A stretch of DNA of 32,371 nt from Planctomycetota bacterium (GTDB lineage: Bacteria > Planctomycetota > Planctomycetia > Pirellulales > PLA5), in contig QEVJ01000062.1 of the NCBI GenBank assembly GCA_003576845.1, positions 1-32,371 on the forward strand, written 5' to 3'. This document shows, in pieces, positions 4,166-22,377 of the stretch. Under the pieces are notes generated by a model. The model saw nothing but the letters and a program-made list of their open reading frames with translations, was not told the DNA's origin and searched no databases. Positions within the stretch are counted from its first letter, which is position 1. Each line of letters starts with the position of its first letter. The translations under genes and the position numbers were made by a program.

Positions 4166-4186
4166 CGCGCGGATCGATCACGCGCG
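4166..4186. terminator. Possible hairpin at the convergent gene end
   Basis: Six-base arms CGCGCG at 4166-4171 and 4181-4186 flank a 9-base loop that contains the flhB stop codon. It lies between two converging genes, where a bidirectional terminator would fit. There is no T-tract on either side, so this is not a standard intrinsic terminator and may be chance in GC-rich DNA. Confidence 0.2.
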
Positions 4187-5263
4187 CTTCATCGCTCCGG
4201 GAATCGTCTTGCCCTTGAGCTGATAGACGTACGCCAGCACTTCGGCGACGGCGGCGTAGGACTGATCGGGTACCGGGTGGCCTGCGTCGACTTCTTTGAA
4301 CAGCAACCGCGCGAGCGGCTTGTTCTCGACGATCGGTACGCCGTGTTCCAAAGCCAGTTGGCGAATCCGGGCGGCGAGGATTCCCGCTCCTTTTGCGACC
4401 ACGACCGGCGCGGCCATCGTCTCGCTGTCGTAGCGCAGGGCCACGGCGAGTTCCGTCGGGTTCGTAACGACCACGTCCGCCCTCGGCACCTCCGATCGAA
4501 GCCGCTGCTGGGCAAGCTGCTTCTGAACCTGCTTGCGGCGGGCGGCGACGTGCGGGTCGCCTTGAAACTCCTTGAGTTCCTCGCGAACTTCCTGCACCGA
4601 CATCCGCAATTCCTGCTCGAACCGCCATCGCTGATAAAAGTAATCGAGAAGCGCAAGCACGACGAGCGCCACGCCGATCTTCAGCGCCGTCCAGAGCACG
4701 AGGTCGAGCAGCACTTGCCCCACTTGACCCGCGCTTAGCCCCGCCAGCGCGAGGATGTCGTCGCTACGATTGAACAGCGTCACGCCCGCCACGGTCGCGA
4801 CGACGGCGACCTTGAACAGGCCGAACGTCAGCCGCATCACGCTGGCCATCGAAAACATCCGGCCGAATCCGGCCAGCGGATTGACGTGCGACCAATCGGG
4901 CAGGGCCTTTTGCGGCAGGAACATCACGCCCACTTGCCCGAGCATCGTCACGATCGCCACGGCCATCGGCACGGCCATGATCGGCAGAACGGTTGTCGCA
5001 AGCTCCCACATCAGCGTATTCCAGTGGTGCTGGAGAAAGCCCGTGTCGACCGATAACCACGCTTCGCCGCCGAGTTGCGTTTGCAGATACCGGGCGAGCG
5101 TTTCGAGCAAACCGCTGCCGAGCATCAGCAGCGCCACCACGCCCGAGAGCAGCACGATTGCGGAAGTCAGGTCCTGGCTGCGCGCGGCCTGACCTTCTTC
5201 GCGCGCCTTCTCACGGCGATGCGGCGTAGGTTCCTGCGACTTTTCGTTGTCGTACTCGGCCAC
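4178..5263 (-). CDS. flhB: Flagellar export switch protein FlhB
   Basis: A 361-residue inner-membrane component of the flagellar type III export gate; it wraps the FliPQR core and switches substrate class from rod/hook to filament. It opens with the family start (EPTPHRREKAREEGQ), then four hydrophobic segments between residues 35 and 210, then a cytoplasmic domain with the self-cleavage site NPTE at 268-271 (usual form NPTH) and VENKPLARLLF at 312-322. Cleavage would fall between Asn268 and Pro269. The start is GTG with no visible Shine-Dalgarno; the bases before it are pyrimidine-rich and run into a heptamer repeat array. It is the last gene of the cluster; flhA does not follow. Confidence 0.95.
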   Translation of the reverse strand: MAEYDNEKSQEPTPHRREKAREEGQAARSQDLTSAIVLLSGVVALLMLGSGLLETLARYLQTQLGGEAWLSVDTGFLQHHWNTLMWELATTVLPIMAVPMAVAIVTMLGQVGVMFLPQKALPDWSHVNPLAGFGRMFSMASVMRLTFGLFKVAVVATVAGVTLFNRSDDILALAGLSAGQVGQVLLDLVLWTALKIGVALVVLALLDYFYQRWRFEQELRMSVQEVREELKEFQGDPHVAARRKQVQKQLAQQRLRSEVPRADVVVTNPTELAVALRYDSETMAAPVVVAKGAGILAARIRQLALEHGVPIVENKPLARLLFKEVDAGHPVPDQSYAAVAEVLAYVYQLKGKTIPGAMKRA

Positions 5264-5273
5264 GGGAATGGGA

Positions 5274-5410
5274 GTTTGGAGGTTAGAGGTTGGAGGTTAG
5301 AGGTTGGAGGTTGGAGGTTAGAGGTTAGAGGTTAGAAATGCGGTTTGCTCCCGCATCGTGCAGCGATGGCGTTCTCCAATCCCCAACCTCTAACCTCCAA
5401 CCTCTAACCT
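5274..5410. repeat. Heptamer repeat arrays forming a perfect 28-bp inverted repeat (fliR-flhB gap)
   Basis: Eight uninterrupted 7-base units (GGTTAGA or GGTTGGA) fill 5281-5336, preceded by a degenerate unit GTTTGGA. Four units in reverse orientation (CCAACCT or CTAACCT) fill 5383-5410. Positions 5280-5307 and 5383-5410 are exact reverse complements over 28 bases, separated by 75 bases. The stop codon of fliR (5404-5406) is part of the last reversed unit. In the fliR-flhB transcript the arms could pair into a long hairpin just upstream of flhB. Confidence 0.95.
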
Positions 5411-6198
5411 CTCCACGAATCCGTAATCGTCTCCAGCACGGCGTCGAGCTGGTCCTCGAACACCATCACGACGGTTCCTACCGAAAATGCAAGCGCCGCC
5501 AGGGCGACGATCGTGTTGAGCGGGATGCCGAGCGCCAGAGCATTGAGTTGCGGCAGCGTGCGGGCGATCAGACCGAGCACGATTGTGGAAAGCAGCAGCG
5601 CCGTGAGCGCCGGTGCCGCCGCGCGAATGCCAAGCAGAAAGCTTTGCGATAGGAGCGTCGTCATCGACTCGAGCGAGCCTTCGATCGCGACCCCTGAACC
5701 CGGCGGCATCGCCACGAGCGTATCGAGCAGCGCGGCGACGACCTGGCGATGCCCGCCGACGAGGACGAACGCGGCCATCGTGGCGTAGAACAGCAACTGC
5801 GAGATCGAGTGGACTTCCTCGTTGAGTCCGGGATTGAACACTTCTCCCAGGGCCATGCCGCTCACCTGGCCGAGCAACTGCCCCGCGACCTGAATGCCGC
5901 TGAAAACGATCATCACACCCAGGCCGAGCGTCGCGCCGATCACGAGTTCGCCGGCGATGAGGGCCAGCATTTGGGCGAGGTGAACCGGTCGCTCGACCTG
6001 GCTATCCCAAACGAGCGGCGCGACGACCGCCGACAGCGCGACGGCCAGAAACGCGCGGACGCGCATCGGCGCCTCGCGCGCGCCCAGAACCGGCGCCGTC
6101 ATGATCAGCGCGCCGACGCGCGACAGAATCAACAGAAACACGACCAGCCGCGGTTCCCACAGCGGACGCCAGGCTTCGATTTGATGGAGCCATTGCAT
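5404..6198 (-). CDS. fliR: Flagellar export gate protein FliR
   Basis: A 264-residue inner-membrane protein, one subunit of the FliP5-FliQ4-FliR1 export gate through which rod, hook and filament proteins leave the cell. Family features are visible: an N-terminal segment with RVGALIMTAPVLG near residues 27-39, RVRAFLAVALSAVVAPL near 47-63, a loop with GQVSGMALGEVFNP near 110-123, and about six hydrophobic helices. Length matches the family (about 250-265). The start ATG 6198 lies 12 bases after the fliQ stop. The final codons (SWRG, stop) merge into a heptamer repeat array, so the C-terminal end may have been reset by repeat insertion. Confidence 0.95.
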   Translation of the reverse strand: MQWLHQIEAWRPLWEPRLVVFLLILSRVGALIMTAPVLGAREAPMRVRAFLAVALSAVVAPLVWDSQVERPVHLAQMLALIAGELVIGATLGLGVMIVFSGIQVAGQLLGQVSGMALGEVFNPGLNEEVHSISQLLFYATMAAFVLVGGHRQVVAALLDTLVAMPPGSGVAIEGSLESMTTLLSQSFLLGIRAAAPALTALLLSTIVLGLIARTLPQLNALALGIPLNTIVALAALAFSVGTVVMVFEDQLDAVLETITDSWRG

Positions 6199-6210
6199 CG
6201 GTCGGCGACG

Positions 6211-6480
6211 TCACTTGAGCGTGTCGGGAATGCCGGCGATCAGGTCGTGCGAATACTGCACCAGCCGCGAAATCACCCACGGCAGCGACCAGCCCAGTAC
6301 GAGCATCATCGCCACGATTTTGGGAACGAACGTGATCGACTGCTCTTGGATCTGCGTGAGCGCTTGCAACAATCCCAGCACGAGCGCCACGAGCAAGCCG
6401 CAGAGCAATACCGGCGCAACGACGACGAGCGATTCGAGAATCGCTTGCCGCGTCAGGTCGATGGCGGTTTGAGCGTCCAT
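6211..6480 (-). CDS. fliQ: Flagellar export gate protein FliQ
   Basis: An 89-residue protein with two hydrophobic hairpin helices, residues about 16-40 and 50-75, and the family pattern AIDLTRQAILESLVVVAP followed by a Gln-rich turn (LQALTQIQEQSITFVPKI). FliQ is the four-copy subunit of the export gate. Length equals the usual 89 residues. It lies between fliP (177 bases upstream, a gap filled with repeats) and fliR (12 bases downstream). No clear Shine-Dalgarno is seen before ATG 6480. Confidence 0.95.
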   Translation of the reverse strand: MDAQTAIDLTRQAILESLVVVAPVLLCGLLVALVLGLLQALTQIQEQSITFVPKIVAMMLVLGWSLPWVISRLVQYSHDLIAGIPDTLK

Positions 6481-6502
6481 GCGATGAATTGACTTTCAAG
6501 CT

Positions 6503-6649
6503 CGTAGGGTAGGTCGAACGAAGTGAGGCTCACCGCTGGGAATGTGGAACGTGGAACATTGAACGCCCGAGGCCGGATGGTTCCACGATCTTCATTCGCC
6601 GCTCCGCCTCGCCTCCGGTCGGCCGCGCTTCGCTCGAACCGATCCTACG
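6503..6649. repeat. Repeat-rich gap with imperfect inverted repeat and short heptamer array (fliP-fliQ)
   Basis: The arms at 6503-6525 (starting CGTAGGGTAGGTCGAACG) and 6626-6649 (ending CGAACCGATCCTACG) are imperfect reverse complements with about 17 matching positions. Between them, 6544-6564 holds three 7-base units: GTGGAAC, GTGGAAC, ATTGAAC. The whole gap between fliP and fliQ is made of this material; no gene or promoter is evident. Confidence 0.65.
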
Positions 6650-6657
6650 CATTCACG

Positions 6658-7551
6658 TCATGTGAATGCAAAGCTTTCGAGCAGCATCTTCACCACGAGA
6701 TGCCAGCCGTCGAGCAACACAAACAGCAGGATCTTGAACGGCAGCGAGATCAGCGCCGGCGGCAGCATGAGCATGCCCATCGACGTGGTCACGCTGGCGA
6801 CGATCAGATCGAGAATCAAGAACGGCAGGTAAATCTGAAACCCGATCAGGAACGCGGTCTTCAGCTCGCTGAGCATGAACGCCGGGAGCAACGCTTGGAG
6901 AGGAACTTCGACGTCGCCGTCCTGCGCGCCGTAGTACACGTAGCGCGGCGTTTCGCCCGATTCGGTCGCCGGCGGCGGCGGGAGATAGTCGAGAAACAGC
7001 CGCACGTCGTCGTCGTTGCCGGTGCGCACGATCTGGTCGCTCATGAACTTGCGAAGCGGCTTGACGCCTTCCGTCCACGTGCGTTCGAGCGTTGCGCCTT
7101 CGGCCTGGCTCGTGTAAGGCGAAATGGCGTTCTCGTACACGGCCGTCCACGTCGGCGTCATGACCACGATCGTCATAAACAACGCAAGCGTCGTGATGAC
7201 TTGCGACGGCGGGAGTTGGTTCGTACCCAATGCCTGTCGCAGCACGCCCAGCACGACCACGATCCGCACGAAGCTCGTCGTCATCATCATGATCGCCGGG
7301 GCGAGGCTGATGACGGTGAGCAGGAGCATCACCTGTAGCGCCGACGTGATGCCCTCGGGACTGGTGAGTTGCGTCGGTTCGAGGGAAAGGTTGCTGGATG
7401 CGTCGACGGCCGTGCCTTGGTTGGCGCCGTCTTGAGCGGGCGCGACCGTTGCCGTCGCCAGAACGGCGATCGCGACGACGCCGAGCACAAGCGGACGAAG
7501 TCGCCGATTCAAAACTCGACAAAGCACTAGGCCCCAACGGAGATCAAACAT
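6658..7551 (-). CDS. fliP: Flagellar export gate protein FliP
   Basis: A 297-residue export gate subunit. The N-terminus carries a cleavable signal peptide (hydrophobic residues about 19-36, cut near AQDG), known for FliP. Then come the family signatures: LLLTVISLAPAIMMM at 77-90, TSFVRIVVVLGVLRQALG at 92-109 and NQLPPSQV at 111-118, two further helices and a conserved end (MGMLMLPPALISLPFKILLF). The start ATG 7551 overlaps the fliO stop by eight bases, which signals translational coupling. The frame runs open far upstream, but that part overlaps fliO and has no family similarity. Confidence 0.95.
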   Translation of the reverse strand: MFDLRWGLVLCRVLNRRLRPLVLGVVAIAVLATATVAPAQDGANQGTAVDASSNLSLEPTQLTSPEGITSALQVMLLLTVISLAPAIMMMTTSFVRIVVVLGVLRQALGTNQLPPSQVITTLALFMTIVVMTPTWTAVYENAISPYTSQAEGATLERTWTEGVKPLRKFMSDQIVRTGNDDDVRLFLDYLPPPPATESGETPRYVYYGAQDGDVEVPLQALLPAFMLSELKTAFLIGFQIYLPFLILDLIVASVTTSMGMLMLPPALISLPFKILLFVLLDGWHLVVKMLLESFAFT

Positions 7552-8272
7552 CGGCAACCTCCGTCGATGGCCGCGAAAGGCGGGGCAGGCCGAAGCGGCC
7601 GGAACGCATCGAAGTGCGCGACGAGCCAGCCTCGTCGCCGCCGAACTGAGAGAACAGATTGCGGAACGACGCCGTGGCGCTGTTTGGGCGGGCTTGCTGA
7701 CAAAGCCCGACCAGACGTTCCACCTCAGCCGCGTCGGTGATCTCGGCCAGCGTTTCCGCGCCGCCGGTCGTGACGGAGAGCAACAACAGCTTGTTGCCGC
7801 AGCGCACGAGTTGGGCCTGGTGGCGCGCGGCCAGCGGCCAGTGGCCGAGCACCTCGAACACCTCGCCGGGAAGCGTCCGCAGCGACTTCGGTCCGGTCCG
7901 GCGCAGGAACCAGACAACTGCCAGGAATAGCCCGAGGACGACGGCGAGGCTGGCCAGCGCATTGAGCAGCGTCGACCAACCGCTCGGCTTGGGCGAAGAT
8001 TCGCCGTCGACCGGAGCGGGCAACCGCTTGCTCGCCAGGGGCAGCGTCCGATCGCCGACCGCTTCGGCTGCAGGAGAGGGTGGCGACGTGTCGGGCATCG
8101 CCAACTTCGGCTGACGGGGAAAGACGGTGTGGGCGCCGAACGGCTCGCGGAGCGATTGGGCGTCATTACCGCGCGCCGAACCGCCTTCGACAGCATATAG
8201 CGGCGCCGCAAGCGTCATCGCGAGCGCGATGCCAAGCAGAGTCGGCTTCATTCCGGGCGAGAAATGCGGCAT
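7544..8272 (-). CDS. fliO: Flagellar biosynthesis protein FliO
   Basis: A 242-residue FliO-type protein, which helps assemble the FliP ring. Residues about 7-22 form a signal-like hydrophobic stretch, followed by a Pro/Ser-rich linker. A transmembrane helix (LASLAVVLGLFLAVVWFLRR, near residues 104-123) precedes the conserved domain with RTLPGEVFEVLGHWPLA and RCGNKLLLLSVT, typical of FliO. I prefer ATG 8272 (AAGG five bases before it) because it puts the signal sequence at the N-terminus; ATG 8254 and an earlier in-frame start at 8413 are alternatives. It ends overlapping fliP. Longer than E. coli FliO (about 100-120 residues) because of the N-terminal extension. Confidence 0.85.
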   Translation of the reverse strand: MPHFSPGMKPTLLGIALAMTLAAPLYAVEGGSARGNDAQSLREPFGAHTVFPRQPKLAMPDTSPPSPAAEAVGDRTLPLASKRLPAPVDGESSPKPSGWSTLLNALASLAVVLGLFLAVVWFLRRTGPKSLRTLPGEVFEVLGHWPLAARHQAQLVRCGNKLLLLSVTTGGAETLAEITDAAEVERLVGLCQQARPNSATASFRNLFSQFGGDEAGSSRTSMRSGRFGLPRLSRPSTEVADV

Positions 8273-8433
8273 CCTTGCCTTCGCGGTTTCGAGTTCAAGT
8301 CGGTCGCGTCGACCGGTCGATTCCAGCGACACGCGCACCGTTTGCGGCGTTTCGAGCGTTGCGAACGAGTAGATTCGGTTGTAATCGCGAATTTCGCCGG
8401 CAGCCGAAACCATCGGCCGAGCGGCGATTCCGG

Positions 8434-9105
8434 TTATGCGGCGTCCACACGTTCACCGACGACCAGTTCGGCGACGCGGACGCAAAAATTATCGTTGAGC
8501 ACGAGTACCTCTCCGCGGGCGATGAGCCGCCCGTTGACGTAGATGTCGACGGGATCGCCGGCCAGCTTATCGAGCGACACGACCGCGCCTTTGCGGAGCT
8601 TGAGGACGTCTTCGAGGTACATGTGCGTTCGGCCCAGTTCGATTTCCAAGTCGAGTTCGACGTCGCGAATCAGGTCGAACGTCGCAGCTTCGGTCGAAGG
8701 CGGCGAACCGGCGAAATCCTGAAGCTGCAATGGTTTTGCGCCGGGCGGCAACGTGTCGTGCTCCGCCTGGACGGAGGCGATTGCGGCCTGCGCATGGTTG
8801 AGCAGCAGTTCGACGTCGCTGGCTGCCTGCGTCGCAGAAGGCTTGGGCGTCGTCGTATTGGGCAGCGGCGCCGCCTTGGTTGCCGATGCCGCCGAACCCG
8901 CGCCGGCCACCTGGTTGCTCGTCGGCGACGCAGGCGAGGGCGCAATGCCCCCGCCCTTGAGCAGTGCCTCGATCTCGTCCTGGCCCAGCGATGGGCCGGC
9001 TTCGGGCTTTTTGGCCGGCGCCACGGAAGGCGCATTGCCGGCCTGGGCCTGAGCGAGCAACTTCTCGATTTCGTCCTGCCCGATTTGTTCCGAGTCGTCC
9101 GCCAT
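8434..9105 (-). CDS. fliN: Flagellar motor switch protein FliN with two FliM-like N-terminal peptides
   Basis: A 223-residue switch protein. The last 80 residues are a SpoA/FliN domain ([52 protein letters not shown]), the part that builds the bottom of the C ring and binds FliH. Ahead of it lies a long Ala/Pro-rich linker with two copies of an unusual peptide: [10 protein letters not shown] at 8-17 and [10 protein letters not shown] at 40-49. Both resemble the N-terminal CheY-binding peptide of FliM (LSQDEIDALL type). ATG 9105 is used, with AAGGA seven bases upstream. fliL lies directly upstream; fliM, which normally stands between them, is absent. Confidence 0.93.
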
Positions 9106-9149
9106 AGGCAATCCTTGCTCTTGCGGCGGCCGCTAGCATTGCTGGCGGT

Positions 9150-9674
9150 CTACTGCTCGTAATAGGAGAAATCGCTGAACACGATTCCCTTGATCATTGC
9201 CTTCCCTAGCAGGCGGTTTGTTTTCTCCAAAATCTTCCGTTTAATCAAGCCCAACACGGGGTCGGTGAGGTCATTCATTTCGCTGGAGCGGATGATTTCC
9301 AGCACTTGTTCGCGAAAGCGGTGCTTGCGCTCTTCGATCAGGGTCGTCACGGTCGCCTCGTCGTTGGGCCGGACCGTGGCGTACAGCTTGAACGACACCC
9401 GCAAGGTCGTGTTCGACGTGGGCTGAAAGGCCGTGACGTCGAAATCGCCGAGCGATATCTCGACGCCCTCGCCGTCGTCGTGGCCCTCGTCTTCTTCGTC
9501 GCCGTGCCCGCCGTGGGCCTCGGCGCTTTCGGCCGGATTCGGCGCGGCCGTGCCGAAAAACCAATACGCCAGCCCGCACTCGACGATCATGATCGTCACG
9601 ACCAGGACGATGATTTTCAGCTTGCCGCCCTTTTTGGCGGCAGGAGCGGCTTCGGCGGCTTTATGGTCGGACAT
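9150..9674 (-). CDS. fliL: Flagellar basal body-associated protein FliL
   Basis: A 174-residue single-pass inner-membrane protein. A cytoplasmic Lys-rich N-terminus leads into one helix at about 19-40, then a periplasmic linker at 50-70 dense in Asp, Glu, Gly and His, and a FliL core (TTLRVSFKLYATV, IRSSEMNDLTDPVLGLIKRKILEKTNRLL) ending in SDFSYYEQ, close to the family ending F-T-F-V-Q type. FliL rings surround and stabilise the stator units. The His/acidic linker is longer than usual and could bind metal, which is only a guess. Start ATG 9674; TAGGA stands about ten bases upstream. The 367-base gap before it separates fliL from flgE, so a separate promoter is possible. Confidence 0.92.
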   Translation of the reverse strand: MSDHKAAEAAPAAKKGGKLKIIVLVVTIMIVECGLAYWFFGTAAPNPAESAEAHGGHGDEEDEGHDDGEGVEISLGDFDVTAFQPTSNTTLRVSFKLYATVRPNDEATVTTLIEERKHRFREQVLEIIRSSEMNDLTDPVLGLIKRKILEKTNRLLGKAMIKGIVFSDFSYYEQ

Positions 9675-14836: not shown

Positions 14837-15520
14837 TCATGGGCCTTGGCGCGGCGTCTTGAGTTCGTTGAGCGTTTCGTTGACGGCCGTCACGCCGGGG
14901 TTGCGAATGTTCTCCAGAATCTTGGCGAGAATATCCTGGTCTTCCGGCGTCTTGAACTCCGCCAGCACCTTCGCCCGTTTGGTCTCTTCCATGTTCTTCA
15001 TGGCTTCGACGACGACGTCGATCTTGTTTTCCTTGTACTTGAGCAGCAATTGTTCCTTGGCCTGCTTGGGCTTCATGCTCTCGACGATCGACTGAAACTG
15101 GCGGCGGCCTTCGGCGACGGCTCGTTCCTTGTCTTTCTCCAGCCGGTTCTCATAAGCCGAGACGATCTGTCCGAAACGGTCCTTCTCTTCTTCGAGCGCA
15201 CGCTGAAGTTTCTTGAACTCGTTGACCATGTCGCGAACCATGTTCTCGCGCAGTTCCATGTTCGCAGCGATAGCGGCGCGGCGCATCTCGATCGCTTCCA
15301 GCGAAGCCTTTTCCGTGCTCGCAGGCGCGGCCGCCAGCCGTTCGGCTTCCCGTTTCGTCACCATCTCGATGCCGTGGGCGATGGCCGCCATTTGTTCGAG
15401 TTTTTCCGGGTCGAGATAGCCTTTCGACAGCGCGTAGCCCACGACGATCGCCAACGACACGACCGTTGCGAAGCACGACCAGCCGATCAACACGGAGAGT
15501 CCGGCGATCAAGCGTCCCAT
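14837..15520 (-). CDS. MotE-like membrane-anchored coiled-coil protein
   Basis: A 227-residue protein with one N-terminal transmembrane helix (about 5-31, ending VVGYALSKGYL) and a long charged coiled coil from about 80 to 150. The C-terminal 70 residues (AKEQLLLKYKENKIDVVVEAMKNM is split here as AKEQLLLKY and VVEAMKNMEETKRAKVLAEF) match the MgtE-N/MotE type motif, in which small helical repeats end in a loss-of-subunit phrase such as AKILENI. MotE proteins are periplasmic chaperones or anchors for the stator protein MotC or scaffold parts of the motor. The first 13 bases overlap fliJ, suggesting translational coupling. Position beside fliJ and fliK is also typical. Orientation in the membrane is inferred. 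Confidence 0.75.
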   Translation of the reverse strand: MGRLIAGLSVLIGWSCFATVVSLAIVVGYALSKGYLDPEKLEQMAAIAHGIEMVTKREAERLAAAPASTEKASLEAIEMRRAAIAANMELRENMVRDMVNEFKKLQRALEEEKDRFGQIVSAYENRLEKDKERAVAEGRRQFQSIVESMKPKQAKEQLLLKYKENKIDVVVEAMKNMEETKRAKVLAEFKTPEDQDILAKILENIRNPGVTAVNETLNELKTPRQGP

Positions 15521-15969
15521 GTCGTCTCCTCGCGCCGCGCAACGGCTTGCAAGGCGAATTCGTCGAGTTGTTTCGACTCGCGGCGAGAACTACGCTTCGC
15601 CTCGGCGAGCGCCTGCCGCTCGCGAAGCTTTTCGAGCGTCTTCACCTCCCGATCGGCCAGCGTCAAAGCTTCGCGGCGGCGCTCGATCTCGCCCAGCAGC
15701 AGCTCGCGCTGCCGGGCATACTCGTTTCGTTGGGCGACCAGCAGCGATTCGCGGCGCTGGCACTCGAGCAACCGGTCGACGTTGAGCCGGCCGGGGCGGG
15801 TCGCTTCGCGATAGTCGGCAGCCAGCTCCGCAAACTCCTCGCCCACCAACCGCAGCGCCTCGCCGAGCATCGACTCCGCGCGGAACGCCTCGGCCAACGC
15901 TCGGCGACGCTCGTCGCGAGTCGCCTCGCGGAGCTTGAGAAGCGTCGAAAGTCGGAACGCGGTTGCCAT
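15508..15969 (-). CDS. fliJ: Flagellar export protein FliJ-like coiled coil
   Basis: A 153-residue, almost wholly helical, Arg/Glu-rich protein. It starts FRLSTLLKLREATRDERRR, the familiar FliJ opening, and continues as an antiparallel coiled coil to about residue 140. FliJ sits inside the FliI hexamer, promotes its assembly and escorts chaperones to FlhA. It follows fliI by four bases and overlaps the next gene by 13, the normal fliI-fliJ arrangement. Length agrees with the family (about 145-150). Sequence identity in this family is always low, so the call rests on fold, opening motif and position. Confidence 0.85.
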   Translation of the reverse strand: MATAFRLSTLLKLREATRDERRRALAEAFRAESMLGEALRLVGEEFAELAADYREATRPGRLNVDRLLECQRRESLLVAQRNEYARQRELLLGEIERRREALTLADREVKTLEKLRERQALAEAKRSSRRESKQLDEFALQAVARREETTWDA

Positions 15970-15973
15970 TCGT

Positions 15974-17329
15974 TTACGGTGTCAAAGCGGCGATTGCCGG
16001 CGGTGCGGCGCGCGGCGCCGATTTGCGCTGCTGGTAGGCCTGAGCGATCTTGGTCAGTTCGGCGACGGCCTGCTCGACGCTCGAACGATCCTCGATCCGC
16101 TGGCGAAGGAACGCATTGAGCACGTCGTGCAGGTCGATGGCCGCGTCGACGGCGACGTTGCTTCCCCGGCGGTAGGCGCCGATCGAGATCAGGTCCTCGT
16201 TCTCGCGATACGCCGAAAGCAGTTCGCGAATTGCGGCGGCCGCGTGCTGGTGCGGCTGGTCGGTGATATCGCTCGCCAGGCGGCTAATGCTCGTCAGCAC
16301 GTCGATGGCGGGATAATGGCCCTTGGACGCCAGGCGGCGCGAAAGCCAGACGTGCCCGTCGAGGATTCCACGAACCGCGTCGGCGATCGGCTCGTTTTCG
16401 TCGTCCCCTTCGACGAGCACCGAGTAGAACGCGGTGATGCTGCCCAATGCCGAGCGGCCGGCGCGCTCCAGGAGCTTCGGCAACAGCGCGAAGACCGAAG
16501 GGGTGTAGCCGCGGGTCGTCGGGGGTTCTCCTGCGGCCAAACCGATCTCGCGCTGAGCCATCGCCACGCGCGTCACCGAATCCATAAGCAGCAGCACGTT
16601 CTTGCCCAGGTCGCGGAAGTACTCGGCGACGGCCGTGGCGACGAGGGCCGCGCGAACGCGGATTACCGCCGGCTCGTCGCTCGTTGCGATCACGACGACG
16701 CTGCGGGCGAGTCCTTCCGGACCCAAGTCGCGCTCGATGAAGTCGTTCATTTCGCGGCCGCGCTCGCCGATCAGCGCGATCACGTTGACGTCCGCCGCCG
16801 TGTACCGCGACATCATGCCGAGCAACACGCTCTTGCCGACGCCGGATCCGGAAAAAATGCCGAGCCGCTGGCCCTGGCCGCAGGTGAGCAATCCGTCGAT
16901 CGTGCGGACGCCCGTCGAGAGCGGTTTGTCGATGCGCGGCCGTTCGATCGGCCGCGGAGGCGGTCGGTCGACGGCGACGCGCTCGCCGAGGGCGGGTTGT
17001 GGGCGGTCGTCCACGCATTCGACGCGGGCGTTTACCACGCGGCCGAGCAACTCCGGCCCGACGCGGACGAAGCGCGTCGTGCGCACGAGGCGAGCCCGAT
17101 TGCCGCGGCGCACGCCCGAAAGATCGCCGAACGGATAGACGATCGTGGCGTCGTCGCGAAAGCCGACGACTTCACCCTCGACGTCGTCGCCGGTCTGGCG
17201 CTCGATGCGCACGGTGGCCCCGACCGGCGCGGGAAAACCCGCGACGGCGATCGTGGTGCCGACCGTGCGAATCACCGTGCCGCAAAGCGCGGTGGGCATG
17301 ATGGCGTCGAGGTGGTCGGAAAGCGACAT
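15974..17329 (-). CDS. fliI: Flagellum-specific export ATPase FliI
   Basis: A 451-residue ATPase of the F1-beta/type III family that energises export of flagellar proteins at the cytoplasmic face of the gate. The Walker A motif GSGVGKS is at 161-167, the ERGREMNDFIE segment is at 189-199, Walker B LLLMD is at 246-250, and TRGYTPSVFALLPKLLERAG follows. The N-terminal beta-barrel domain (about 15-90) and C-terminal helical domain are both present, so the enzyme looks complete. ATG 17329 begins 39 bases after fliH ends, in a short gap whose sequence again has a 7-base period. fliH, its negative regulator, is immediately upstream and fliJ is immediately downstream. Confidence 0.96.
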   Translation of the reverse strand: MSLSDHLDAIMPTALCGTVIRTVGTTIAVAGFPAPVGATVRIERQTGDDVEGEVVGFRDDATIVYPFGDLSGVRRGNRARLVRTTRFVRVGPELLGRVVNARVECVDDRPQPALGERVAVDRPPPRPIERPRIDKPLSTGVRTIDGLLTCGQGQRLGIFSGSGVGKSVLLGMMSRYTAADVNVIALIGERGREMNDFIERDLGPEGLARSVVVIATSDEPAVIRVRAALVATAVAEYFRDLGKNVLLLMDSVTRVAMAQREIGLAAGEPPTTRGYTPSVFALLPKLLERAGRSALGSITAFYSVLVEGDDENEPIADAVRGILDGHVWLSRRLASKGHYPAIDVLTSISRLASDITDQPHQHAAAAIRELLSAYRENEDLISIGAYRRGSNVAVDAAIDLHDVLNAFLRQRIEDRSSVEQAVAELTKIAQAYQQRKSAPRAAPPAIAALTP

Positions 17330-17368: not shown

Positions 17369-18022
17369 CTACGTGAGTTCTTCTTCGATTCGAGCGAGTT
17401 GGGCTTCGAACGTCTGGTCGATGACGCCGAATTGCGTTTCGATGCGGCACCCGCCGCGCGTGATCTGAGGGTCGGCGATGAGCTCTGCGGACGATAGTTT
17501 TGCGAACTCGGCGGCCAGTTTTTGGGCCTGGGGACCGAGGGCCGCGTGGTCGGCCGGATTCAGCCGGATCGTCAGGTGTCCGCCGCCAACGGCGAGTTCG
17601 AGCGCTTCGCGCAGCAGCTTTAAGGGAATTGCCGGTTCCGCCGCGACTTCCTTGCGGACGACGCGGGCCGCAATCTGCGCCGCCATGTGCACGACGTTGC
17701 GTTCCCAATGCGTCAGCCACGCCGTCTTTGCCTGCGCGATGCCGTCGATCGCTTTGCCGAGCGCCGGGAGCAGCGTCTTCATCTGCTTGCCGACCTTTTC
17801 GTCGAGCACCTTCTCGGCGGCGTCCATGGCCGCCTGGCGGCCTTGCTGTTCGGCTTGCGCGCGGATGGCGTTTGCTTCGCGATTGGCGTCGGCGAGAATC
17901 TTCGCCGCTTGTGCCCGGATTTCCGCCAGATACCGCTCGGCCTGCGCGTTCATGTCGTCGAAGTTGAACGCCGCGGCGTGCGGTTGGCGGGCGGAGGCCG
18001 ATTTGATGACCGTGGCCGTCAT
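17369..18022 (-). CDS. fliH: Flagellar assembly protein FliH
   Basis: A 217-residue soluble protein that dimerises, binds FliI and tethers it to FliN at the C ring. Residues about 28-75 form an Ala/Gln/Glu-rich helix (QAERYLAEIRAQAAKIL, EANAIRAQAEQQG), like the glycine-spaced helix of FliH and F-type b subunits. The C-terminal domain has ERNVVHMAAQIAARVVRKEV near 114-133, then LTIRLNPADHAAL and DPQITRGGCRIET, all standard for FliH. The ATG at 18022 overlaps the fliG stop in ATGA, which decides the start over the longer open frame running back through fliG. Confidence 0.92.
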   Translation of the reverse strand: MTATVIKSASARQPHAAAFNFDDMNAQAERYLAEIRAQAAKILADANREANAIRAQAEQQGRQAAMDAAEKVLDEKVGKQMKTLLPALGKAIDGIAQAKTAWLTHWERNVVHMAAQIAARVVRKEVAAEPAIPLKLLREALELAVGGGHLTIRLNPADHAALGPQAQKLAAEFAKLSSAELIADPQITRGGCRIETQFGVIDQTFEAQLARIEEELT

Positions 18023-19146
18023 GCGACACCTCCGGCGATCGACGCCTGCATCGCGTGCCACGCCGCCGCAACGACGTCCTGTGCCGCATCGAGATCGGCG
18101 AGCGAAACGGGTCCAAGTTCGTCCAACCCGCGGCAAATCTCGCGCGCTTGCGACTCGTCGAGTGCATCCAGCACACGGTCGACGAACGCCGGCGCGGCCG
18201 CCGCGAGCGCGAGCACGGCGACCGCGGGTTCGATGCCGCGCCACAGCGCGGGGAGCTCCGAGTCCGCGAGCATTTCGAGGTCTGCGAACCGCAAAGTACG
18301 TCCGCTGGGCGGCGAGGCCACGACGGGAAGCGGCCCGGCCGAAGCGGTCGCCCGTTGCGGCGCAGCCCCGCGGTGGCCAAGGCGTTCGGCAAGCGTTCGA
18401 TCGCGCTGGGCGAGCGCATCGAGCACGTGCCGCTGCGTGTAGTCGCTCGCGACCGACAGAATCCGCTGGGCGGCGGTCAAACCGACGGACGGTGTGCTCG
18501 CGTCGGTAGCCGGCGCGATCCACTGCCGCAAGGCGTCCTCGATCTCGCGCACGACGACCGCGTCGGTCGGTTCCATCGCCGCCAAACGCCGGAGAACTTC
18601 GACTTGGACCGGCTCCGCGAGCGCCGCCAAGACTTCGGCCGCCCGAGAAGGAGGCAAATGGGCCAACACCACAGCAATCGCTTGCGGGTGTTCGCGGCCC
18701 AGACGGCCGGCGAGTTCATCCATCCGAGCTTCGTGGAGAAAACGGAACGGCGGCTCGTCCCGATCCGGTAAGTCGGCGATCGCGTGCGTGGGTTCGGACA
18801 AGGCGACCGCGTCGTCAAACACCGCCTCATCGCGAACCGACGCAGCGAGCCGCTGGGCGACGCGGTCGTCGAGTTCGATGCCGGCGCCGTCGAGATTCGC
18901 GACGTTCGACTGGCGACGTTCGACGGTCGGAGTGCGCCTACTCGCCAAAGCGTCGAGCGCGGCTTCCGCTTCCTCTTCCGAAACGTCCGTCAACTCGACG
19001 ACAGCCTGCCGAACGCGATGGGCTTGCGCGGGAGACATCCGCGCAAGCAAGGCGTCCGCTTGCTCGCGATCGAGGCGGGCAAACACGATTGCAGCCATCC
19101 GGAGTTGTTCGCGTTGGGCGACCATCATTGATCTTGCATTGCTCAT
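18019..19146 (-). CDS. fliG: Divergent flagellar motor switch protein FliG
   Basis: A 375-residue FliG homologue. The middle domain keeps the FliM-contact motif EHPQ (152-155) in REHPQAIAVVLAHLPPSRAAEVLAAL, and the next armadillo-like segment (DYTQRHVLDALAQRD, 235-249). The C-terminal domain (286-360) aligns end to end (LRFADLEMLADSELP; CRGLDELGPVSLADLDAAQ), but the charged residues that in other FliG proteins contact the stator are replaced by uncharged or reversed ones. The N-terminal domain, which binds FliF, is also weakly conserved. It lies between fliF (6-base gap) and fliH (4-base overlap). I am sure of the family by position and motifs, less sure that it generates torque in the usual way. 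Confidence 0.85.
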   Translation of the reverse strand: MSNARSMMVAQREQLRMAAIVFARLDREQADALLARMSPAQAHRVRQAVVELTDVSEEEAEAALDALASRRTPTVERRQSNVANLDGAGIELDDRVAQRLAASVRDEAVFDDAVALSEPTHAIADLPDRDEPPFRFLHEARMDELAGRLGREHPQAIAVVLAHLPPSRAAEVLAALAEPVQVEVLRRLAAMEPTDAVVVREIEDALRQWIAPATDASTPSVGLTAAQRILSVASDYTQRHVLDALAQRDRTLAERLGHRGAAPQRATASAGPLPVVASPPSGRTLRFADLEMLADSELPALWRGIEPAVAVLALAAAAPAFVDRVLDALDESQAREICRGLDELGPVSLADLDAAQDVVAAAWHAMQASIAGGVA

Positions 19147-19152
19147 CGTTTG

Positions 19153-20829
19153 CTAACCGGCGCTCCCGATCCAACTGCGAAGAATCGCCGCGGCGCCGTC
19201 GGGGTCTTCGCGAATGAGGTCGGTGAGCTCGTCCTTGAGTGAGACGCCCGGCTCGCGACGTTTGAGAATCCGCGCGGCGGGCTTCTTGGCCTCCATTTCC
19301 GCCGCCGTTTCTTCCTTTGCCGGGCCCGATTCTTTCGCGGCGGGGAACGGAATCGTGGTGGCAAATGGCGTCGCAGGTTCCGGGGTTCCGGCGGCCGCGC
19401 CGCCCTTGATCGTCGACCGCAGCATCACCAGCGCGAACGCACCGAGCAGCACCAGTCCGAGCGTCGACCAATAATTACCCAGCCACGCAAGCACACCCGT
19501 CGCCAGGCTTGGCTCCGCCACGTCGGGCGGCGGAAAGTCGTCGAACGCCACGATCGTGACCGGCCTGAGCGGTTCGGTCGGATCGCTCACCGGCAGCAAG
19601 CCCGCGATAAGCGTCTTCATTTCTTGAATTCTGGCCGCTTCGATGGCGGCAACCTGATTGTCGTCGATTTTTTGGTCGTCGGGCACATTATTCTGCTTGC
19701 GCCACAGACGAACGAAGTAGCTCTTGGGCACGCTGATCGACGCGGTCACACGTTTGGGAACTAGGCCGAAATGTTCGCTCGTCGTTTGTGTGCCGCCGGG
19801 AGCGATGGTCTGGTTTGCCGTGCTTTTTTGCACCGTGGCGGTGTTCTTCGGCGACGATTCCACCACGGCGCCCGTGTTCGCCCCGGACGTGTTCGTACGC
19901 GTGCCGGGCACGCCGCCGGGTCCGGTCGTCTCCCGCGTTTCGTCCTGTGTCGTTTCCTCAGAACTGATGGTGACCGAGCCGGGCTTGTCGTATTTGATCA
20001 TGCGCTCTTGACGCCGGGCTTCCGTGTCGAGTTCGACGTTGATGGCGATCTGTACGCCCGGCACGTATCCGAGCGCCTTTTCGATTTGGGCCAAGAAGTC
20101 CTTTTCATACTTCTTGCGCAATTCGAGCAGTGAGTTGTCACCGCTTACGCCGTCGCCGGAAAGCCGATGCGAATGGCCGCTCACCAAGTCCGTGACCGTT
20201 ACGTCCTCGGGCCGCAATTGTGAAATCGCCGAAGCGACCATGTGGCCGATGCCGCGGATCCGCGATTCGTCGAGCGGTAGATTGCCCGTGCCTTTGACGC
20301 TGACCGAGGCGGTGCCGACCACTGTCTCGTGGAGACCGCCCTTCCTCTTGACATCGTACGCCACGGCGGCCTTGTCGATGCCCGGCATCGAGCGAATCCA
20401 TAGAGCGAGTTCTTCCTGGAGCGCGACTTTGAGCCGCTCCTCGCGTTCGCGGGCCGTGATGAACGGGCCGGCTTCGGTCAGCGTCTTTCGCAGTGCCGCG
20501 CCGAAGTCAGCCGGGAGAGCACCCGCGTCGGCGATCGCGCCCATGAAGGCGGCACGCTGGCCACGCGGCACGCGGATGCGGTTCCCTTCGATGGTATAAC
20601 CGTCGAGTCCCGCCTTGCCGAACGCCTGTTCCATCGCGTTGACTTCGCCGGCGCTGAAGTGCTGTCCGCCGAGAAGGTAATCGTCCGGCCCTCCAGCCTC
20701 CTGTCCGACCAGCCAGACGAGGCTGACGATCAACACGCCGAGCAACAGGCCCGCAGTGATTCGCGCGCCGGGCGTCATCGACCGGAACAGATCGGCGACT
20801 TGCGCGAGGGCTTTGTTGAGGAAGTCCAT
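19153..20829 (-). CDS. fliF: Flagellar MS-ring protein FliF
   Basis: A 558-residue membrane protein that builds the MS ring, the first structure of the flagellum. A first helix lies at about 24-43 and a second at about 449-470. Between them are the periplasmic ring-building domains (LDGYTIEGNRIRVPRGQRAAF; MPGIDKAAVAYDVKRKGG; GIGHMVASAISQLRPEDVTVTDLV; EKALGYVPGVQIAINVELDTE). The cytoplasmic tail ends in AAAILRSWIGSAG, the FliG-binding helix form. Length is normal (about 550). The bases before ATG 20829 hold no Shine-Dalgarno; they are a G/C-rich heptamer array. fliE is 80 bases upstream, fliG 6 bases downstream. Confidence 0.96.
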   Translation of the reverse strand: MDFLNKALAQVADLFRSMTPGARITAGLLLGVLIVSLVWLVGQEAGGPDDYLLGGQHFSAGEVNAMEQAFGKAGLDGYTIEGNRIRVPRGQRAAFMGAIADAGALPADFGAALRKTLTEAGPFITAREREERLKVALQEELALWIRSMPGIDKAAVAYDVKRKGGLHETVVGTASVSVKGTGNLPLDESRIRGIGHMVASAISQLRPEDVTVTDLVSGHSHRLSGDGVSGDNSLLELRKKYEKDFLAQIEKALGYVPGVQIAINVELDTEARRQERMIKYDKPGSVTISSEETTQDETRETTGPGGVPGTRTNTSGANTGAVVESSPKNTATVQKSTANQTIAPGGTQTTSEHFGLVPKRVTASISVPKSYFVRLWRKQNNVPDDQKIDDNQVAAIEAARIQEMKTLIAGLLPVSDPTEPLRPVTIVAFDDFPPPDVAEPSLATGVLAWLGNYWSTLGLVLLGAFALVMLRSTIKGGAAAGTPEPATPFATTIPFPAAKESGPAKEETAAEMEAKKPAARILKRREPGVSLKDELTDLIREDPDGAAAILRSWIGSAG

Positions 20830-20909: not shown

Positions 20910-21209
20910 TTAGATTCGCAGGTCCTTAATCTCGGCGAATGCTTCCACCATCTTGTTGCGCACTTGCATCATCATGCGAAACGCGAGGTCGGCCTTTTGG
21001 ACGGCGGTCAGGACTTGGGCCGGGTTGACGTCTTCGCCGACGCTCATCGCTTCCACCGCGCGGTCGGCGTCGAGTTGCATCTGGTTCACGTCGTGAATCG
21101 ACTTGACCAGCATGTCCTTGAACGACGAGTCCGTCGGCGCGTTGGCGCCGAGTTCGGGCAAGTGCCCCAACGCAGCCGGTTGCAGCGTGGTGGTGTTGAT
21201 TGCGGTCAT
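20910..21209 (-). CDS. fliE: Flagellar hook-basal body protein FliE
   Basis: A 99-residue rod adapter protein that links the MS ring to the proximal rod. The family core is clear: SFKDMLVKSIHDVNQMQLDA near residues 29-48, then VGEDVNPAQVLTAVQKADLAFRMM and the closing VRNKMVEAFAEIKDLRI. Length is typical (about 100). ATG 21209. It follows flgC after 44 bases and precedes fliF after 80, in the usual flgB-flgC-fliE-fliF order. Confidence 0.95.
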   Translation of the reverse strand: MTAINTTTLQPAALGHLPELGANAPTDSSFKDMLVKSIHDVNQMQLDADRAVEAMSVGEDVNPAQVLTAVQKADLAFRMMMQVRNKMVEAFAEIKDLRI

Positions 21210-21253
21210 GCTGGTTCACCGGTTTGTAGTTTGCGCTACGGTTTTGTATGTCG

Positions 21254-21676
21254 TTAGCCGATGATGCGGAGCGTTTGCTGCGACAGGCTTTTGGTGACTT
21301 CGATCACGCCGAGGTTGGCTTCGTAGGCTCGCGTCGCCTCGGTGGCGTCGACGAACTCGTTGATGACGTTGATGTTCGGGTACGCGACATAGCCTTTTTT
21401 CTCCCCGGACTTCTGCGCGTCGGGATGGCCGGGCTGGTAGCGCCAGAGCGGCTCGTTATCTTCGATGTTGACCGTCGATACCTTGACGCCGATGCCGCCG
21501 TCGCTGGTGGCCGTGTTTCCATCGACTTCGAAGACGACGTGTCGGGCTTGATAGGGAACCGCCTGGCCATCTTCGTTCCGCGTGGTCGAGACGTTCGCGA
21601 TATTGCCCGTGATCGCGTTGAGCCGCGTGCGTTGGGCGACGAGCGCGCTCGTGCTGATGTCGAGGGCGTGGATCAT
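21254..21676 (-). CDS. flgC: Flagellar proximal rod protein FlgC
   Basis: A 140-residue rod protein. The start is set by ATG 21676, giving MIHALDISTSALVAQRTRLN, with AAGGA eight bases upstream; an earlier in-frame codon adds ten unlikely residues. The rod motif NAITGNIANVSTTRN lies near 20-34, in the place where most relatives have NIANANTT. The C-terminal half has YVAYPNINVINEFVDATEATRAYEAN (here split: YVAYPNINVINEFVD, EATRAYEANL), also a family hallmark, and ends SLSQQTLRIIG. Directly upstream is a 281-base gap filled partly by repeats, then flgB. Confidence 0.95.
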   Translation of the reverse strand: MIHALDISTSALVAQRTRLNAITGNIANVSTTRNEDGQAVPYQARHVVFEVDGNTATSDGGIGVKVSTVNIEDNEPLWRYQPGHPDAQKSGEKKGYVAYPNINVINEFVDATEATRAYEANLGVIEVTKSLSQQTLRIIG

Positions 21677-21704
21677 GGCGGCGTCCTTGCCGAAGTCAGA
21701 AGGC

Positions 21705-21732
21705 AAAATGTAAAATGGAGAATGAAAAATGC
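21705..21732. repeat. AT-rich heptamer array (flgB-flgC gap, flgC side)
   Basis: Four 7-base units: AAAATGT, AAAATGG, AGAATGA, AAAATGC. It lies 29 bases upstream of the flgC start and is much richer in A and T than anything nearby. Its period is the same as that of the G-rich arrays, although the unit is unrelated. Confidence 0.8.
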
Positions 21733-21892
21733 TCGATGGAGCGCGGCGTTTTGCGGAATGGTTAAGGAAACGTGCTGCTGCGGCCGATTTTTGGAGCCAT
21801 GCTCATTGCACTGCTGATGCTCCGATTCTTCGCAAGCAATCAAGATGTCGTACGATGGCGTGTTCACGTCTCAACAAAAACTTTGCGATTTC

Positions 21893-21920
21893 CCTTCTGT
21901 CCACTGCCCACTGTCCACTT
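21893..21920. repeat. Heptamer array (flgB-flgC gap, flgB side)
   Basis: Four 7-base units: CCTTCTG, TCCACTG, CCCACTG, TCCACTT. It is located 37 bases after the flgB stop. Between this and the AT-rich array (21733-21892) I see no gene and no clear promoter. Confidence 0.75.
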
Positions 21921-21957
21921 AACCTGAACTTCAGTTGCGGCCGAAGGCCCCGTTGCG

Positions 21958-22377
21958 TTACACACGTTCGCTGATCGCCGCTTGAAGCAGGGAAAACTGG
22001 CTTCGCATGACCGCGATGGCCGTATTGTGTTGGGTTTGGTTCTTGAGGATTTCGGCGACCTGCTGGTCGAGGCCGTCGTTGCTGTCGTCGTGATACAGGA
22101 TCGACTTCATCGACTCCTTTACGTCTTCCATCGCTTGCGCGGCCGACGGTTTGTAGGCGGCTTCGCTCGGCGACTGCGACTTCGGGCCGGCGTGTTTGGC
22201 CTCGACCGCCTCCTTGAGCCGGGCTTGAAACGTGTCCACCGACAAGTCGCGGACCTTGTAACCCGGCGTGTCCATGTTGGCCACGTTCCCCGCGAGCACG
22301 TTGTGCCGGGCCTGCGAAAAGTTTACGACTTGTTCGAGGACGGGAATCGTCGTGTTGGCGAACAGATCGTTGAGCAT
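21958..22377 (-). CDS. flgB: Flagellar proximal rod protein FlgB
   Basis: A 139-residue rod protein and the first gene of the cluster. The conserved opening LEQVVNFSQARHNVLAGNVANMDTPGYK (residues 14-41, quoted here as NVLAGNVANMDTPGYK) is the rod-protein signature. The centre (about 60-80) is variable and charged, and the end (NTAIAVMRSQFSLLQAAI) is the FlgB terminal helix. Length matches relatives (about 135). ATG 22377 has AGG about ten bases upstream. A sigma-54 promoter placed about 50 bases before the start should yield a leader of about 38 bases. Confidence 0.95.
   Translation of the reverse strand: MLNDLFANTTIPVLEQVVNFSQARHNVLAGNVANMDTPGYKVRDLSVDTFQARLKEAVEAKHAGPKSQSPSEAAYKPSAAQAMEDVKESMKSILYHDDSNDGLDQQVAEILKNQTQHNTAIAVMRSQFSLLQAAISERV

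Follow-up and report, generated by a model that had tools for sequence, protein, structure and literature searches.

In model bacteria FliG has three jobs, namely to join the C-ring to FliF, to hold FliM and to take up torque. The flagellar operon on a 32,371-nucleotide stretch of planctomycete DNA (hereafter, the window) raises the question of what a FliG is for when the charged residues of its torque domain are missing. The original prediction, an alignment by eye, had reported this loss and offered three options: torque generated through other charges, a second FliG elsewhere in the genome, or a structural or non-rotating role for this copy.

The fliF-operon FliG and its torque ridge

The open reading frame at 18019..19146 (minus strand) was found to encode a FliG of 375 residues, here termed FliG_D for divergent FliG, by Pfam search, AlphaFold modeling with VIA-align and order-wide alignment. 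Its FliG_N (about residues 9-77), FliG_M (about 132-211, including the EHPQ motif) and FliG_C (about 284-371) domains all scored above Pfam cut-offs. By MAFFT alignment of 96 FliG proteins, including E. coli FliG taken from the MG1655 record, the window protein aligned to the E. coli protein without gaps between 236 and 317, with K264 replaced by A315, R281 by S332, D284 by R335, D288 by R339, D289 by G340 and R297 by S348. The torque domain at about 18031..18300 (minus strand) is devoid of equivalents of K264, R281, D288, D289 and R297, and the charged ridge by which a torque FliG is recognized (K264, R281, D/E288, D/E289, K/R297) reads A, S, R, G and S, exactly as had been called by eye. Against TIGR00207, the NCBI equivalog model for FliG, the protein scored 85.1 bits, under the cut-off of 226.7, and its gene lies in the fliF-fliG-fliH order.

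Structural comparison gave the same result. An AlphaFold model built with 47 order-level homologues (pLDDT of 92-98 for FliG_C) was superposed on Thermotoga maritima FliG_C (1qc7; 88 residues, rmsd 1.5, Z 14.9) and on MotAB-bound FliG (8ucs; 85 residues, rmsd 1.1, Z 14.0). As both superpositions covered ranges of equal length, there is no register shift in FliG_C. Structural alignment had been named beforehand as the check that could overturn the charge loss; it did not restore charges to the torque helix, and the observation therefore stands. The folds of the model also matched FliF-FliG_N, FliM-FliG_M and FliG_C structures by superposition, and the EHPQ motif for FliM contact was located at E152-H153-P154-Q155, in agreement with the retention of fold and motif described initially.

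The genes listed here from fliF to the export gate are on the minus strand. Upstream of FliG_D is fliF (19153..20829), the sole FliF of the genome, with a C-terminal FliG-binding tail, REDPDGAAAILRSWIGSAG, and beyond it fliE, flgC and flgB (20910..22377, from open reading frames and synteny). Downstream are fliH (17369..18013; Pfam FliH, 93 bits), the export ATPase gene fliI (15974..17329; open reading frame and order-wide synteny), fliJ (15508..15969; position and synteny) and a MotE-like coiled-coil gene (14837..15520) that was named by position, is syntenic in flagellated relatives only and gave no confident match in a family search. The operon continues with fliL (9150..9674), the C-ring gene fliN (8434..9111; FliMN_C 83 bits, TIGR02480 103 bits) and the export gate genes fliO-fliP-fliQ-fliR-flhB (4178..8413), which were assigned by synteny and by an FlhB match of 390 bits, with fliQ named by position only. 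The FlgE-like hook protein encoded at 10042-12537 has 831 residues, about twice the usual length, and is 809-986 residues long in all relatives seen. In most flagellated relatives motA-motB lie between flgE and fliL, next to fliL; the pair is absent from 8434-9674 of the window and is found on a separate contig (C29).

Canonical FliG and stator of the same genome

A whole-genome search detected a second FliG, as the original prediction had proposed, on contig C191 (L018, 9145-10149, plus strand). In that search its FliG_C domain scored 146.7 bits and that of the window copy 40.2 bits, and the protein from C191 matched TIGR00207 at 301.9 bits, above the 226.7 cut-off. On alignment it reads K264, R281, E288, E289 and K297 and, thus, has all five charges. 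The gene is preceded by two others that were named by eye, one CheX-like and one methyl-accepting-protein-like.

The genome was further found to encode one FliF, one FliM, two FliN-like proteins and one MotB. A second flagellar system was unsupported, as there is only one FliF and one MotB. One of the FliN-domain proteins (L023, 9027-9923 on contig C49, about 298 residues) is encoded beside a methyl-accepting-protein-like gene. MotA and MotB are adjacent on C29 and form the sole MotAB pair; other MotA candidates, on contigs C192, C55, C41, C128, C212 and C14, were ExbB/TolQ-like, were paired with ExbD-like genes and were rejected. MotA R90 and E98, the partners of FliG D288-D289 and R281 (PMC12505986), are intact. 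Since a canonical FliG with all five charges and a MotA with R90 and E98 are both present, the window copy would not be the torque FliG; the canonical FliG and canonical MotAB would form the torque pair, and FliG_D would therefore not be needed for torque.

We compared the ridge positions of 39 canonical and 53 divergent FliG copies by column statistics. Canonical copies had K264 in 97%, R281 in 100%, E288 and E289 each in 97% and a basic residue at 297 in 97%. By contrast, position 264 was never basic (K/R) in the divergent copies and was Ala in 66%; position 281 was basic in 17%, 288 was basic in 53% and acidic in 6%, and 289 was acidic in 8%, while 297 was still basic in 74% and 300 was acidic in 98%. 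The charge sign of ridge positions differed between species among the divergent copies. Most of these copies had the E.PQ motif for FliM contact, and a clade-specific motif, GPTRLSDVExAQ, was conserved among them. Because the same kind of loss is seen in these 53 order-wide homologues, while the canonical copies of genomes with a stator retain their charges, the loss of charge in the window copy is not due to chance. The canonical copies that departed from the ridge charges were one truncated at a contig end and those of two genomes with neither MotB nor flagellin (G029 and G051); the latter suggest that ridge charges decay once the stator is gone, even in the canonical copy.

Distribution, descent and predicted FliF contacts of FliG_D

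The genome set comprised 57 Pirellulales genomes (that of the window and 56 others), with the order label resting on named relatives of the canonical FliG and with motile or non-motile status inferred from gene content. Many are incomplete draft MAGs, so absences carry error, and copies with Pfam scores near the detection limit may be missed. Exactly one FliF was found in 56 of the 57, and a divergent FliG adjoined FliF in 53, including 18 genomes devoid of MotB. The canonical FliG, where present, was at a separate locus, often beside cheX. Two FliGs were likewise found in Botrimarina hoheduenensis, B. colliarenosi, Adhaeretor mobilis and Aeoliella straminimaris, and in each of these species fliF and fliH flank the divergent copy. 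Among Planctomycetales, Alienimonas chondri and a Gimesia had a single FliG, which was canonical and occupied the fliF-fliH slot, and more distant planctomycete genomes had the canonical FliG in the fliF-fliG-fliH position as well.

Phylogenetic analysis grouped the divergent copies in one clade (support 87/89), which joined FliF-FliG fusions found in some Planctomycetales and in another family at 100/99, although the long branches of the divergent sequences make their placement less certain than the support values suggest. The divergent copies and the canonical FliGs of Pirellulales and Planctomycetales fell on one side of a branch supported at 99/97; thus, the FliG_D paralog would have arisen inside the class Planctomycetia. 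The same branch leaves a horizontal gain of FliG_D from outside the phylum unsupported. Support was just 46/36 for placing FliG_D nearer to one or the other canonical FliG, that of Pirellulales or that of Planctomycetales.

Other FliG-like proteins were encountered. Two MotB-less genomes of one family (G019 and G054) encode a further divergent FliG (L118 and L119) away from fliF, with Lys at 264 (ALKQ) and a very long branch. Another FliG type in the same class (L235-L245; G074, G121, G134, G220, G251 and others) grouped near proteobacterial FliG on a long stem (100/100), with R281, E288 and E289 mostly kept and K264 often not, and may belong to a separately acquired flagellar set. Long open reading frames with weak FliG_C matches in G042 (L122) and G017 (L123) were identified by Pfam as TPR/multiheme cytochrome proteins and were set aside along with a similar weak match in G053 (L121); all three proteins are 880-950 residues long, and the matches probably reflect a generic helical repeat and not FliG.

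Canonical FliG, MotB and flagellin were all present in 33 of the 57 genomes, all absent from 17 and mixed in 7. For canonical FliG by MotB the counts were 34/5/1/17 (both, canonical FliG alone, MotB alone, neither), with p ~3e-9 by Fisher's test, which takes no account of kinship. When mapped on a tree of FliF+FliI, canonical FliG underwent at least 7 changes; three of five independent pairs agreed with the link to MotB and none opposed it, a result that was not significant because the independent pairs were too few. Canonical FliG was still present in three genomes without MotB and flagellin (G029, G043 and G051), and one genome that is 83% complete (G030) had MotB with no canonical FliG detected. 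The divergent FliG was found in 35 of 35 MotB-positive and 18 of 22 MotB-negative genomes. The typical MotB-negative locus reads fliF-fliG_D-fliH-fliI-fliJ-fliN-fliO-fliP-fliR-flhB and is devoid of the flgB, flgC, flgD, flgE, fliK, fliL and motAB of flagellated relatives. Genomes without stator, flagellin and canonical FliG usually retained FliM/FliN and the export gate. The GG motif of FliM, a FliG contact, was kept in most genomes with FliG_D as their only FliG, and the CheY-binding motif was eroded in several. Loci without rod, hook, filament and stator genes (L074, L079, L080, L096, L104, L105, L107 and L115) could possibly encode a stripped flagellar-type secretion system.

We also examined the FliG-binding tail of FliF, which ends in ..DPRVVALVIRQWINNDHE in E. 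coli and in ..REDPDAAANILRSWIGN in Pirellulales. Apart from the FliF genes of G026 and G055, which are interrupted where their contigs end, the tail was kept in every complete unfused FliF found alongside FliG_D, whether the genome was flagellated or not. It was missing in G025, in G048 and from the short FliF of G039, the three genomes that have FliF without FliG and FliM. In five genomes without MotB and flagellin, FliF and FliG were encoded by a single open reading frame (G003, L065; G021, L082; G038, L099; G052, L113; G056, L117). FliG_N is gone from these natural fusions, and FliF passes directly into FliG_M. If FliG_N serves to hold FliF, the covalent link would render it dispensable. 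Among the sequence data, these FliF-FliG_M fusions argue most strongly for a role of the divergent FliG as an adaptor from FliF to FliM. Related FliF-FliG fusions were observed in Planctomycetales (L247-L250; G323, G209, G220 and G121).

Compared to its counterpart in a congener, the window FliG had 65% identity, with a dN of 0.30 and a dS of 1.43, while the canonical FliG had 90% identity and a dN of 0.058. Every other operon gene in the comparison evolves more slowly than does FliG_D. As dS is near saturation, the dN/dS of about 0.21 for FliG_D is approximate, though well below 1. Judged by these rates, FliG_D is under purifying selection, yet appears the least constrained of the genes compared, and its fast evolution could reflect relaxed constraint. 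A pseudogene or sequencing error is ruled out by the intact open reading frame, this dN/dS and the order-wide conservation.

A probable division of labor between two FliGs

Of the three options offered initially, the second FliG elsewhere is shown, and the structural or non-rotating role is the best supported for the window copy, based on the retention of FliG_D without stator or flagellin, the FliF tail and the fusions; its role in the cell we infer from these patterns. FliG_D probably holds the export base of the flagellum together rather than drives rotation. We consider it likely that an old FliG duplication was split into a torque FliG and a scaffold FliG that links FliF to FliM and serves the C-ring and export gate. 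By this model, FliG would have duplicated within Planctomycetia, and in Pirellulales the fliF-operon copy would have turned into a scaffold while the torque job passed to the copy elsewhere, often beside cheX, paired with the single MotAB. FliG_D would keep two contacts (FliG_N to the FliF tail and the EHPQ of FliG_M to FliM) and would have lost the third, that of the FliG_C torque helix with the stator. From its original slot it most likely fastens FliM/FliN to the MS ring and, by way of these, FliH/FliI, which would let the export gate work with or without rotation. Binding of FliG_D to FliF and FliM is predicted from motifs and folds, and a scaffold and export role from gene content and fusions. 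In swimming cells both FliGs would presumably share one basal body and C-ring; they would then compete for one FliF tail, which counts against the model. A broader version is possible and is held more tentatively: that Planctomycetia have a dedicated torque FliG and a dedicated MS-ring and export scaffold FliG, and that in several lineages the scaffold has outlasted the rod, hook, filament and stator and, in some cases as part of a FliF fusion, forms the cytoplasmic ring of a flagellar secretion machine that is stripped down and does not rotate.

Other explanations were weighed against the scaffold model. That FliG_D is itself a torque FliG working on different charges, with compensating changes in MotA, is very improbable. 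The residues often basic at 288 (53%) and 297 (74%) and acidic at 300 (98%) would suit such a role, but the sign of the ridge charges varies between species, the sole MotA/MotB pair bears the classical R90/E98, the genome also offers a fully canonical FliG, and FliG_D is kept in 18 genomes without MotB; unconserved ridge charges and persistence without a stator therefore disfavor this option of the original prediction. An unlikely alternative is that FliG_D is a remnant of the former operon fliG in the course of decay, retained through chance or operon structure. Decay would account for its being the fastest evolving of the operon genes compared and for the weak FliG_C score in many genomes, but not readily for a gene that keeps an open reading frame, its full length and its synteny in all unfused relatives, has a dN/dS of about 0.21 even at saturated dS, conserves the GPTRLSDVExAQ motif, outlasts the loss of the whole filament and stator and, when fused to FliF, lost FliG_N alone.

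Planctomycetes can alternate between swimming and attached stages, and FliG_D might instead take the place of the canonical FliG in the C-ring at some life stages and so disengage the motor, as a rotor-side clutch of the sessile stage and not a constitutive scaffold. FliG_N and FliG_M are kept in both FliGs, so competition for the same FliF tail and FliM is possible; FliG_D is kept, however, in genomes that have no stator to disengage, and we regard this explanation as improbable.

Under the scaffold model, evolution appears to have split the torque job from the other two jobs of FliG and, thus, to have set up a natural experiment on the purpose of the C-ring in the absence of rotation. In practice, motility calls made from the presence of fliG fail in Pirellulales. 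We found no earlier account of the planctomycete FliG pair in searches of the open-access literature. With the canonical FliG of E. coli and Salmonella (TIGR00207), FliG_D shares the three-domain layout, EHPQ, the FliG_C fold (rmsd 1.5 to 1qc7) and the fliF-fliG-fliH position; it differs in the missing torque-ridge charges and in its score (85.1 bits compared to the 226.7 cut-off). The nearest precedent is Borrelia burgdorferi, in which FliG1 is used for torque and FliG2 for filament synthesis and flagellar assembly (PMC7225975, a review). Common to both are two FliGs with divided labor, and the likeness rests on that division, as the tree included one Leptospiraceae FliG only. Unlike in Borrelia, the assembly-type copy of Pirellulales is without torque charges, persists where stator and filament are lost, and in some genomes forms a fusion with FliF. 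Engineered FliF-FliG fusions of Salmonella and Vibrio reportedly still build rings, which shows that covalent linkage is tolerated (PMC6079021, PMC11481574); compared to these constructs, the planctomycete fusions are natural, have no FliG_N and come from genomes in which flagellin and stator are absent. According to a 2025 survey, 11% of non-motile species have rotor genes but no filament, and the possibility of another function was put forward (PMC12199754). Compared to that survey, a specific rotor paralog is named here, with its torque surface gone and its predicted scaffold contacts kept, and FliG_D thus offers a concrete protein and set of genomes with which to ask why many non-motile bacteria retain rotor genes.
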